Below the pieces are notes generated by a model. The model saw nothing but the letters and a program-made list of their open reading frames with translations. It searched no databases and had not been told where the DNA came from. From Saccharopolyspora sp. NFXS83 (lineage in GTDB: Bacteria; Actinomycetota; Actinomycetes; Mycobacteriales; Pseudonocardiaceae), in the NCBI RefSeq assembly GCF_026241095.1, contig NZ_JAPFGB010000002.1:62001-126000 (forward strand): a DNA stretch of 64,000 nucleotides, written 5' to 3'. Below are positions 5,814-64,000 of this stretch, one piece after another (positions within the stretch are counted from its first letter, which is position 1; every line of letters starts with the position of its first letter). The position numbers and the translations under genes were made by a program.

Positions 5814-6770
5814 TCACCTCCGCCGTGCGACGTGCTGCCGGTAGCTCTCCATGGGCAACCCGCTCAGCCACGGCACGACGCCGAGCCGGTGCAGCACGCG
5901 GATGGTCCGGCTCGGCCGGTATCCGGCGAAGGCTCCCCCGAACATCAGGATGCGGCTGTGCTCCTGGACCCGGCGCGCCAGCGCGGACATCCGCTCCCGC
6001 GCGAGCGCGCGGTGGAAGTGGCTGTCCGGCGCCATCCGCGCCCGGACCGCGGCCCGCACCTGCTCGGACAGGTCGAATTCCCGCACCCAGTCGAGTCCTT
6101 CGACGCCGGGCGCGAGCCGCTGGAAGTGCGCGTAGCGCTGGCGGGTGAACAGGTCGATGTGGGTGAGGTGGCCGCCTGGTCTGAGGACCCTGGAGACCTC
6201 GCCGAGGAACCTGCCGAGATCGGGATAGGTGTGCGAGCTCTCGATGTTCACCACGACGTCGACCGCACCGTCTTCGAAGGGCAGCTCCTCGGCGTCTCCG
6301 TGCACGAACCGCAGCTGCTCGCCCCGCGCCAGCAGCGCGTTCGCCCGCCGGACCGCCATCGGCGACAGGTCCACCCCGACGAACCGGGCGGTGGGCACCG
6401 CTCGGGACAGGAAGTTCAGCCCTTCCCCCGGCCCGCACCCGATTTCGAGCACCGTCTTGCCCGCGTAATCGTCGAAGGACATTGGAATCCCGCGCAGCGC
6501 CTGGAAGTACAGCTGCTCGCTGAACCCGTCGGTGCCGAACCGGCCGAAGTCCGCGATGGTTCGCTCGATATCCCGCACGACCTCCGGGTCGTGCATCCCC
6601 CAGTTCCACAGGTCGTTGCCGGAGCTCCGCTCGACCGCCAGGTCGTAGATGGTGGCGCTGGCGGTCTTCATCCGCTCGGCCTCGGCACCGCGCCGCGGCG
6701 TGCCGGTCTCGTCGAGGTTGATGGCCGCCAAGCCGGTGCTGAACGCTGTCATGATCTCGGGCGTGCTCAC
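5814..6770 (-). CDS. SAM-dependent class I methyltransferase
   Basis: 318 aa. Has the Rossmann SAM-binding motif VLEIGCGPGEG (about residue 109), the acidic residue at the end of strand 2 (FVGVDLSP), and the later motifs HGDAEELPF and VLRPGGHL, as in small-molecule methyltransferases of the Methyltransf_11 group. A helical N-terminal extension (about 1-100, with SGNDLWNWGM) precedes the fold. I choose the GTG at 6768-6770 because GGAGG lies 5 bases upstream; a GTG 11 codons earlier is the alternative. Last gene of the leftward run, 32 bp after panD. Elfamycins carry a chain methoxy group and glycosylated ones carry O-methyl sugars; this enzyme could serve either, and the sequence does not decide. 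Confidence 0.75.
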   Translation of the reverse strand: MSTPEIMTAFSTGLAAINLDETGTPRRGAEAERMKTASATIYDLAVERSSGNDLWNWGMHDPEVVRDIERTIADFGRFGTDGFSEQLYFQALRGIPMSFDDYAGKTVLEIGCGPGEGLNFLSRAVPTARFVGVDLSPMAVRRANALLARGEQLRFVHGDAEELPFEDGAVDVVVNIESSHTYPDLGRFLGEVSRVLRPGGHLTHIDLFTRQRYAHFQRLAPGVEGLDWVREFDLSEQVRAAVRARMAPDSHFHRALARERMSALARRVQEHSRILMFGGAFAGYRPSRTIRVLHRLGVVPWLSGLPMESYRQHVARRR

Positions 6771-6802
6771 TTCGGCCTCCAGCCGGGAACGGGGACTGCG
6801 CA

Positions 6803-63000: not shown

Positions 63001-64000
63001 AACTCCGGCCGCCCGCACCGGATCCCGCACGCCCAGGGTCGACAAGAACCGCTCGCTACCGGAGACCACTGCCACCTGCACCTCCTGTTGTCCGATCAGG
63101 CGGCTGAGCGCCGCGATGCCCGCCGCCGGCGGGATGGGGTGCACGCCGGCTCGGGCCAGCCGCGCGGCGTGCTCGACCGCCAGGCCCGAACCGGCCCACG
63201 CACCCCAGTTCACGACGTGGACGGGGAAGGGCAGCGCGGTCTGGAGGGCGTGGGCGCAGGCGTCCTGGAACGCCGACGCCGCCGCGTAGGAGCTCTGCCC
63301 CGGATTGCCGAGGAAGGACTGCACGGACGAGAACAGCACCAGGAAGTCCAGGTCGAGATCCGCGACCGCGTCCGCCAGCGCCACCGTCGTGCGCGTCTTC
63401 GCGAGACCCGCGGCGACGGCGCGCTCGTCGAGCTCGGCCAGCGCACCGTCGCGCAGTTCGTTCGCCGCGTGCACGACGCCGTGCAACCGGCCTGCGCGGG
63501 CCGCGAACTCATCGATCGCGGTCCGCAACCCGACCGGGTCGACCGCGTCGGCGCGGACGTACCGCACGTGTTCGCCGGTCGGGTCCCACGCGGCGATCCG
63601 GGAACGTCGGGCCGCGTCCGGTTCGGATCGGCCGATCAGGCACACCTTCGCGCCGTGCTCGCGCACCAAGTGCTCGGCCAGGTCCAGTCCGATGTCCCCT
63701 GCTCCACCGACGATCAGATACGCGCCACCAGCGCGGAAGGCGGTCCCGTCACCGGTGAGTGCGAGCGGGTGCAGCTCCTGCTCCCACCACTGGCCGTCGC
63801 GCCGCGCGAACTCGCCGGACGCCAAGGCGCCTAGTTCGCTGGCGGCGCCGTCGGGGTCGTCGAACACCTCGGCGCGAGCCAGGTCGGCCGTGGTGACGTG
63901 CCACCGCTCGCACTCCCGCCGAACCGATTTGAGCAGACCCCGCAGCGACGCCGACCAAGGCGCGAGCACCGGGCCGATCGGGAGCGCGTCGGCGGTCACG
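60007..64000 (-). CDS. Trans-AT PKS, C-terminal part (KirAII-like; 5' end outside window)
   Basis: Open to the right edge; about 1330 residues visible. Order: KR (VGGAGDIG, YAAAS), ACP (FGFDSITY, near 62838), KS (ACSSS near 62030, ETHGTGT, KSNAGH), AT-docking segment, ACP (FGVDSLG, near 60471), then an Ala/Pro/Gly-rich linker and docking helices (VGRLLAGLRDGRISVDDAL) that would pair with the start of the NRPS-PKS. The last module has no reductive domain and should leave a ketone next to its own alpha carbon. In kirromycin this is the ethylmalonyl module feeding glycine, giving the ethyl branch and the hemiketal carbon, so this last ACP is the probable target of the free acyltransferase at 4427-5770. 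The GTG at 63999 is internal, not the real start. Confidence 0.92.
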   Translation of the reverse strand, partial: VTADALPIGPVLAPWSASLRGLLKSVRRECERWHVTTADLARAEVFDDPDGAASELGALASGEFARRDGQWWEQELHPLALTGDGTAFRAGGAYLIVGGAGDIGLDLAEHLVREHGAKVCLIGRSEPDAARRSRIAAWDPTGEHVRYVRADAVDPVGLRTAIDEFAARAGRLHGVVHAANELRDGALAELDERAVAAGLAKTRTTVALADAVADLDLDFLVLFSSVQSFLGNPGQSSYAAASAFQDACAHALQTALPFPVHVVNWGAWAGSGLAVEHAARLARAGVHPIPPAAGIAALSRLIGQQEVQVAVVSGSERFLSTLGVRDPVRAAGVPDVPPGADNADEVPGAAPAEWVPALRADLHGLVCSVAGLGPAELGLETELRLFGFDSITYTQLSNRVNVAFELDLTPAFFFGIATTADLADKLVRDHVAALARHYGEFRRPEPSAAPEGVRKSPPVDENGSERSRRETPGVAGTAQECTDEHGDAVAVVGMAGMLPGSADLAEFWAHLVAGDDLITEIPADRWAWRSLYGDPESGEFRTWAKWGGFLPRVDLFDPLFFGISPKEAAAMDPQHRLVLQAVWSAIEDAAIRPSALSGTDTGVFLGCGTYDYFEVQHAFEAPLDGYNTVGRAHAMLSNRVSYLLDLHGPSETVDTACSSSLVALHRAAESIRHGDCDLAFAGGVNVIASPTLFVDMSRADMLSPDGRCRTFDAGANGIARAEGVGIVLLKRMSAAVADGDVIHGVIRGSAINHGGRTNSLTAPNPDAQAACVVRAHRRSGVDPRRVGYVETHGTGTSLGDPVEVEGLKSAFATLYRDRGADVAEQHIALGAVKSNAGHLEAGAGITGLLKVLLAMRHGTFPGNLHIDQINPHVRLDGSPLRILRGTEPWHRSGGERRIAGVSSFGLGGVNAHVVVEEAPDDPTVRRDGPDVFVLSAKDPQRLRAYAERIVRWLDRDAPDGLDLPTLCRTAQAGRDAMPQRLAAVAADLPGLRVALAEWLGGRDDVPGVVTGDAEQRDSTATALLEGPEGAAYLRAVFAARRLDKLAVLWTGGVDLDWDLLWSGEAPRRVPMPTYPFAEESYWITPGERFRGGDAQPPPVRPVVEEPAAEPTRAAQPESAPPRAEAARAEAAPPGEEPAPTGDFAGVRARITALLASHLGLDPARLRQDRVLTEFGVDSLGMRRLSRRLGAEYGIDIPARLFTTGRTINALAAELESRFGSQLRSAQRPPAPEVLDPAGVPGPARHGGSSAATGGGAEDGADPTPAGLGTAVPSGIPTSPGSETPDESGSGARSSGPAAPPDAVGRLLAGLRDGRISVDDALAELQQEDVR

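Follow-up and report, generated by a model that had tools for sequence, protein, structure and literature searches.

A kirromycin/aurodox-type gene cluster with an adjoining sugar cassette in Saccharopolyspora sp. NFXS83, probably for a glycosylated elfamycin

Overview of the locus

A stretch of 64,000 nucleotides from the genome of Saccharopolyspora sp. NFXS83 (G000; 6.9 Mb in 70 contigs), comprising bases 62001-126000 of contig C12 and called the window below, holds a gene cluster that we studied as a candidate for elfamycin biosynthesis. Elfamycins inhibit bacterial protein synthesis at EF-Tu. The cluster consists of a polyketide synthase (PKS) and nonribosomal peptide synthetase (NRPS) assembly line on the minus strand, a cyclase gene, a block of tailoring genes and a cassette of sugar genes at the left edge of the window. 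Ten of the 14 ketosynthases (KS) of the line are inside the window and the other four are located just beyond base 64000. Coordinates are those of the window throughout, negative values and values above 64000 referring to flanks fetched from the same contig.

Domains were mapped by Pfam scans together with profiles derived from domains of the cluster itself (own-domain profiles) and are given in order of synthesis, 5' to 3' on the minus strand; AIV and the portion of AII beyond the window were mapped with own-domain profiles alone. The names AI to AVI follow the order along the line, not Kir sequences, and all likenesses to Kir and Aur proteins are drawn from published descriptions along with gene position and class, not from sequence identity. 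Two sets of related clusters were used for comparison. Scanning an alignment of the NRPS B (listed below) over named genomes returned ten loci. Eight of them, at 61-65% identity, are referred to as the named loci (Streptomyces sp. CB00455, sp. SM11, sp. ISL-94, sp. G-G2, S. roseoverticillatus, S. kronopolitis and S. klenkii, and Micromonospora rubida), and the two weakest (25% and 23%) were discarded as unrelated. Whole lines were compared in eight clusters, namely that of G000, five of the named loci from four Streptomyces and one Micromonospora (G397, which is Streptomyces sp. CB00455, G398, G399, G402 and G403) and two from another genus of the same family, Pseudonocardiaceae (G330 and G474).

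Organization of the assembly line

The genes and notable domains of the line are as follows (ACP, acyl carrier protein; KR, ketoreductase; DH, dehydratase; MT, methyltransferase; AT, acyltransferase; C, condensation; A, adenylation; PCP, peptidyl carrier protein).

ORF 74016-80141, minus strand, outside the window: AI, ACP-KS1-KR-ACP-KS2
60007-74361, minus strand: AII, DH-ACP-KR-KS3-KR-MT-ACP-KS4-KR-ACP-KS5-ACP (window part 60007..64000, KR-ACP-KS5-ACP)
55250..60010, minus strand: AIII, C-A(Gly)-PCP-KS6, adenylation positions DILQLGMIW
35127..56060, minus strand: AIV, DH-KR-ACP-KS7-DH-KR-MT-ACP-KS8-ACP-KS9-KR-ACP-KS10-KR-ACP-KS11
44457..46652, minus strand: module 8 (KS8-ACP) by own-domain profiles, with neither KR nor MT
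27938..35332 (start possibly 35068), minus strand: AV, DH-ACP-KR (module 11) and KS12-DH-KR-ACP
18606..27941, minus strand: AVI, KS13-AT-DH-KR-ACP-KS14-AT-(KR remnant)-ACP, of cis-AT type
19170..19643, minus strand: KR remnant of module 14, without NADPH motif and without Ser/Tyr
14296..17514, minus strand: B, KirB-like NRPS C-A-PCP for beta-alanine, adenylation positions DTLQLGVIW

The true start of AIV is probably near 55253, as suggested by its overlap with the AIII stop. Cys-His-His is kept in all 14 KS of the cluster. An earlier note on this DNA had read the modules in order from KS-ACP through glycine to beta-alanine and Dieckmann release, and the domain searches reproduce this order; the "dead KR" which it placed in the last module corresponds to the module 14 remnant. 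It had also read a methylmalonyl DH-KR module followed by a malonyl module. The AT of module 13 carries the motif YPSH (YASH in G330 and G399) and that of module 14 carries AFHS, which we take to be methylmalonyl-like (YPSH/YASH) and malonyl-like signatures, in agreement with that reading.

Adenylation positions were extracted at the GrsA code positions, nine of the ten being read. The NRPS situated between modules 5 and 6 (C-A-PCP-KS) gives DILQLGMIW, which fits a glycine code on these nine positions. The A domain of B matches the beta-alanine motif of AurB, DTLQLGVIWK (PMC9361827), at 9/9 positions read. No thioesterase appears among the Pfam matches of B, AI, AIII, AV, AVI or the segment of AII within the window.

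Two further features of the line were observed. ACP-like stretches devoid of the usual GxDSL serine follow KS8 (about 45141-45278), KS12 (30980-31129) and, in the portion of AII beyond the window, KS3, in each case within the linker, and were likewise present in five of five clusters inspected by eye; they might be LINKS-like or docking inserts. The N-terminus of AI (79200-80141, about 314 residues) has no Pfam match and matches weakly to LnmK (PDB 4hzp, E 3.7e-5), a bifunctional acyltransferase/decarboxylase, and could be the source of an acetyl starter.

Conservation of the line among related clusters

The order of KS, DH, KR, MT, C and A domains is identical in all eight clusters compared, apart from ACP-like stretches of low score, the remnant KR and the weak last AT of G474 (40 bits). 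The earlier note had proposed a KS phylogeny as a check, and in trees of 98 and of 112 KS, 13 of the 14 positions form one clade each, KS14 being interrupted by KS13 alone. Support for the KS13 clade is weak (87/76 in the 98-KS tree and 85 in the 112-KS tree). On these trees 13 changes suffice for the 14 position labels, the minimum possible, as compared to shuffled means of 77.5 (98 KS) and 88.4 (112 KS); none of 200 label shuffles in either tree reached the observed order.

KS9 clusters with KS4 and KS5 (support 98/94 in the 98-KS tree and 98 in the 112-KS tree), the pairing of KS4 with KS9 having 93/73 in the former and not being resolved in the latter. KS3, KS7, KS8 and KS12 form a separate clade. 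We infer that the group of KS4, KS5 and KS9 accepts beta-hydroxy chains and the group of KS3, KS7, KS8 and KS12 alpha,beta-unsaturated chains. Because KS9 groups with KS4 and KS5, a neighbouring module would probably have reduced the chain before it arrives at KS9.

Chain release, precursor supply and tailoring

The remaining genes of the cluster between the line and the sugar cassette are listed below (ER, enoyl reductase; SAM, S-adenosylmethionine; THF, tetrahydrofuran).

17429..18274, minus strand: KirHI/NcmC-type Dieckmann cyclase; ten-orthologue profile against NcmC (PDB 6e6t), E 2.5e-59
13267..14271, minus strand: methyltransferase at the AurM* position, putatively for pyridone N-methylation; Pfam Methyltransf_2
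9886..13263, minus strand: KirCI-like AT-AT-ER trans-acyltransferase, from domain searches
8669..9886, minus strand: P450b, KirOII-like, putatively for THF formation; Pfam p450
7245..8480, minus strand: P450a, KirOI-like by elimination, putatively for pyridone 5,6-desaturation; Pfam p450
6803..7222, minus strand: KirD-like aspartate 1-decarboxylase (panD), beta-alanine supply; Pfam Asp_decarbox 3.9e-49, above the TIGR00223 cut-off
5814..6803 (start may be 6770), minus strand: KirM-like SAM O-methyltransferase, putatively 20-O-methylating; Pfam Methyltransf_11
4430..5770 (start approximate), plus strand: KirCII-like discrete acyltransferase, putatively for ethylmalonyl; Pfam Acyl_transf_1 5.3e-84

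The cyclase has no Pfam or NCBIfam match and its single-sequence PDB search was empty at E 0.1; its triad C94/D121/H262 is invariant in all ten orthologues aligned. The Cys-Asp-His triad of the TrdC/NcmC/KirHI Dieckmann cyclases has been described (PMC5466765, PMC4979870), and KirHI is given as the Dieckmann cyclase in PMC5818483 and PMC4979870. A single cyclase sequence matched at E 1e-10 in 2 of the 397 genomes of the order sample (G000 and G330), and in one of the six genomes of the genus searched, G000 itself. The profile of ten sequences matched 53 of 390 family genomes, scoring above 400 bits in three of them (G000, G330 and G474) and 288 in the next; these three alone were examined further. 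Two more NcmC/KirHI-type matches are present in G000 on contig C67 (143219-150122), with NRPS-type matches nearby.

In all eight named loci the cyclase gene is directly upstream of B, and B is followed by the same block, namely the O-methyltransferase at the AurM* position, CI, P450b, P450a, D, M and CII, which is complete in five and has one P450 absent in three. Orthologues of the methyltransferase between B and CI (68-70% identity), of CI (60-62%), of the KirM-like gene (60-64%) and of the KirCII-like gene that closes the block (58-60%) occur in 8/8, those of P450b in seven and those of P450a in six. The genes of the block follow one another as do the rows of Table 1 of PMC9361827; if that table follows gene order, aurM* is likewise located between aurB and aurCI. 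The table has no entry for aurOI. Among the best PDB matches are CYP105 entries for P450a and EryF for P450b, EryF being the closest characterised relative of KirOII (PMC5818483). Knock-outs in the kirromycin producer assign methylation of the C-20 oxygen to KirM, the pyridone double bond to KirOI, the THF ring to KirOII and the C-30 hydroxyl to KirHVI (PMC5818483). As a separate observation, the block of M. rubida is devoid of P450b and those of S. roseoverticillatus and S. klenkii of P450a, from which we would predict a product with no THF ring in the first and 5,6-dihydropyridones in the other two.

Precursor genes are present as well. A KirN-like crotonyl-CoA carboxylase/reductase at 80623-81960 scores above the TIGR01751 cut-off, and G000 has a second panD on contig C26. 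Loading by the second AT of KirCI is reported in work cited in PMC6164871. The KirCI-like protein has GASLG, not GHSLG, in its first AT, and the first ATs of G330 and G399 are also without the GHS motif. The two family relatives differ in arrangement: each has one panD, away from the elfamycin cluster, and in each P450a and CII are separated by a PhyH gene, in the place held in G000 by panD and the KirM-like gene. The KirM homologue of G474 is upstream of AI, and none was found within the 160 kb searched in G330.

The sugar cassette

The part of the locus that the earlier note leaves out is the sugar cassette at the left edge of the window, five genes between -2178 and 4358.

ORF -2178 to -949, plus strand: sugar dehydratase/epimerase-type gene, its scores falling short of the curated cut-off for every NCBIfam model listed
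1..429 in the window, continuing to about -731 in the left flank, minus strand: MycE/TylE-type sugar O-methyltransferase; Pfam MycE_N 7.8e-21
784..1620 (start approximate), plus strand: TylF-type sugar O-methyltransferase; Pfam TylF 6.7e-85
1651..2898, plus strand: glycosyltransferase 1 (GT1), GT28 N-terminus and EryCIII-like C-terminus by Pfam
3030..4244 (start inferred, ORF to 4358), minus strand: glycosyltransferase 2 (GT2), EryCIII-like N- and C-termini by Pfam

All five genes adjoin the CII-like gene in G330 and G474, in the same order and with 59-90% identity, the epimerase-type gene being inverted in G330 only. Identities in G330 and G474 are 64% and 68% for the MycE/TylE-type protein, 76% and 90% for the TylF-type protein, 66% and 75% for GT1, and 59% and 71% for GT2. 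The start at 429 of the MycE/TylE-type gene is suggested by a Shine-Dalgarno-like site, the ORF extending to 666; its PDB matches are 8ia9, a demethylmacrocin O-methyltransferase (1.5e-81), and 3ssm (6.6e-81). The match of GT2 to an NCBIfam model of activator-dependent glycosyltransferases is below the cut-off of that model. The TylF-type protein matches 4cdz, which we take to be the spinosyn 4'-O-methyltransferase, with 249 bits and the mycinamicin III 3''-O-methyltransferase (4xvz) with 244 bits, and also NovP. The nearly equal scores for two O-methyltransferases single out no particular sugar.

Proposed product and alternative explanations

The earlier note's assignment of an elfamycin skeleton is borne out by the architecture common to 8/8 clusters, the orthology of KS by position, the glycine and beta-alanine codes, the NcmC-type cyclase and the aurodox-like tailoring block. 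Its kirromycin chain stands as far as the elfamycin type is concerned, but the likely product is a different one. Since the cluster has a methyltransferase at the AurM* position and, next to the block, a cassette of five sugar genes, the product is probably a glycosylated, N-methylated elfamycin and not kirromycin. We describe it as of the efrotomycin type because of the cassette and because efrotomycin and UK-69,753 are N-methylated disaccharide elfamycins; the sugars of efrotomycin are 6-deoxyallose and rhamnose. Our reading, to which we give a probability of about 0.85, is that this is a complete kirromycin/aurodox-type cluster whose product would be a glycosylated N-methyl elfamycin akin to efrotomycin, with EF-Tu as the predicted target.

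The following pathway may be envisaged. The KirCI- and KirCII-like enzymes would load malonyl and ethylmalonyl units, by analogy with kir/aur biochemistry. Modules 1-5 would assemble the goldinonic-acid half, to which glycine would be joined; modules 6-14 would then provide the diene, the precursor of the THF ring and the triene before beta-alanine is added. The Dieckmann cyclase would then free the chain as a 3-acyl-4-hydroxypyridone. P450b would close the THF ring and P450a desaturate the pyridone, while the KirM-like enzyme would methylate O-20 and the AurM*-position enzyme the pyridone nitrogen. The two glycosyltransferases, the two sugar O-methyltransferases and the dehydratase/epimerase would finally attach one or more O-methylated sugars to give the EF-Tu-targeting glycosylated elfamycin.

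Several observations weigh against this reading. The KR of module 9 has Arg in place of the catalytic Lys that the other intact KRs carry. In modules 6 and 7 the DHs retain their catalytic His, but Glu replaces Gly in HxxxGxxxxP. Module 8 is without KR and MT and module 1 without DH in 8/8 clusters; since these gaps are common to all, they are no argument against membership of the elfamycin family. They do show that the earlier note was right about the family but too neat in letting the module order reproduce the skeleton: domain order alone does not spell the exact molecule. Table 1 of PMC9361827 labels kirHII/aurX as the Dieckmann cyclase and kirHI as hypothetical. The genome holds one dTDP-sugar isomerase (PF00908), few for two different deoxysugars. 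No transporter was found among the cluster genes scanned with Pfam. The one EF-Tu of G000 above the family cut-off keeps A375. Two PhyH-family genes are located elsewhere in the G000 genome, but a search at E 1e-8 for the PhyH gene that the relatives carry in their clusters gave no homologue, and a 30-deoxy product is for that reason expected with moderate confidence. It is conceivable, at somewhat less than even odds, that the cluster makes a new congener with N-methyl and 20-O-methyl groups, no C-30 hydroxyl and one or more O-methylated deoxysugars, in a producer tolerant without A375T.

It is unlikely, in our estimate, that the cluster makes just an aglycone of the aurodox or heneicomycin kind and that the neighbouring sugar genes serve another pathway or use. 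The five genes were not found in the fetched stretches of the other five clusters (G397, G398, G399, G402 and G403), GT1, GT2, TylF and the epimerase have no match at E 1e-15 in any of the eight named loci, and the single PF00908 isomerase fits such an explanation; however, the conserved order of the cassette beside the CII-like gene in another genus speaks for its belonging to the cluster. A departure from kirromycin at module 8, with the C-20 ketone kept and no C-19 methyl, would account for KS8-ACP standing alone in 8/8 clusters. Kirromycin has CH(OMe)-CH(CH3) at this site, with O at C-20 and CH3 at C-19, and kirromycin-type compounds in general carry both. The kirM mutant yields 20-O-demethyl-kirromycin (PMC5818483). 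A C-20 hydroxyl is required by the KirM-like O-methyltransferase, whose gene occurs in this cluster and in 8/8 named loci (none in the 160 kb searched in G330) although module 8 lacks both KR and MT, and KS9 sides with KS4 and KS5, the putative acceptors of beta-hydroxy chains. We consider such a departure very improbable. Some other pyridone or tetramate pathway, resembling that of nocamycin or of tirandamycin, has hardly any credit: NcmC-type cyclases make tetramates too (PMC5466765) and 53/390 family genomes match the cyclase profile, but the glycine NRPS lies within the PKS, and the beta-alanine code, the panD of the cluster and the KS orthology at 14 positions speak against a tetramate-type line.

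We return to the glycosylated efrotomycin-type product and to how its producer might be protected. Besides A375, the EF-Tu of G000 keeps G316 and Q329, and around Y160 it reads GEEY, the same as in two genus mates without cyclase match. The A375T exchange was found in five of the eight cluster-bearing genomes checked (G330, G474, G402, G403 and G404), was absent from G000, G399 and both EF-Tu copies of G397, and occurred in 0/5 checked genomes of the order sample without cyclase match (G314, G385, G055, G069 and G014). It is a kirromycin-resistance mark used for finding elfamycin producers (PMC8625390). The single EF-Tu of G000 thus speaks against self-resistance by A375T in this strain. If the congener suggested above is real, the producer would owe its protection to other residues of EF-Tu, to glycosylation or to export. 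The location of the EF-Tu genes was also noted. The sole tuf found in G330 (C1:2121842-2123026) and in G474 (C1:3267267-3268454) encodes A375T and lies within a few kb of the cluster, on its sugar side; that of G000 is on a different contig from the cluster; and G397 (Streptomyces sp. CB00455) has a second, diverged EF-Tu, 60% identical to that of G000, alongside its elfamycin cluster.

Neighbouring pathways

The next genes to the right of the cluster (84379-92886) probably specify a ribosomally synthesized and post-translationally modified peptide; they are a B12-type radical SAM gene, a P450 gene, a second radical SAM gene and a YcaO gene. To the left (-15418 to -6839) lies a separate NRPS-PKS with a thioesterase.

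Comparison with known elfamycin systems

The kirromycin cluster of Streptomyces collinus Tu 365 (PMC5818483) has in common with the present one the trans-AT genes AI-AV and cis-AT AVI, the glycine and beta-alanine NRPSs, the KirHI cyclase, KirCI, KirCII, KirD, KirN and, by gene class and position, KirM and two P450s. In comparison to it, the present cluster has an additional methyltransferase at the AurM* position and the sugar genes, and a KirHVI counterpart was not found in it. The aurodox cluster of Streptomyces goldiniensis (PMC9361827), which has been expressed in Streptomyces coelicolor M1152 and whose product also blocks type III secretion, is alike in AI-AVI, in the table row order HI-B-M*-CI-OII-D-M-CII, in the beta-alanine code and in the crotonyl-CoA carboxylase/reductase. 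It differs in that its tailoring block stands before AI, if Table 1 of that paper gives the gene order, whereas here the block follows AVI. Here, moreover, a sugar cassette is present, both P450 genes are adjacent (the aurodox table has aurOII alone) and no KirHVI-like gene was found in the cluster. Efrotomycin is listed for Amycolatopsis lactamdurans, and UK-69,753 appears in reference titles (PMC8532670). The phenelfamycin cluster has been published (Yarlagadda et al. 2020, cited in PMC8625390). Among the titles listed in literature searches on elfamycins, kirromycin and efrotomycin, none was on an efrotomycin gene cluster.

The clusters of G330 and G474 are alike throughout the whole line and have the five-gene sugar cassette in the same order. 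The sugar genes would suit glycosylated N-methyl elfamycins such as efrotomycin and UK-69,753, a likeness drawn from the structures of these compounds. The three clusters of one family with a common sugar cassette open a way to study how glycosylated elfamycins are encoded, and the set of eight clusters makes the programming of module 8 testable, KR and MT being absent in 8/8 though the product seems to need both. The assembly line of Saccharopolyspora sp. NFXS83 is of the known elfamycin type and is accompanied by a cassette of probable glycosylation genes.

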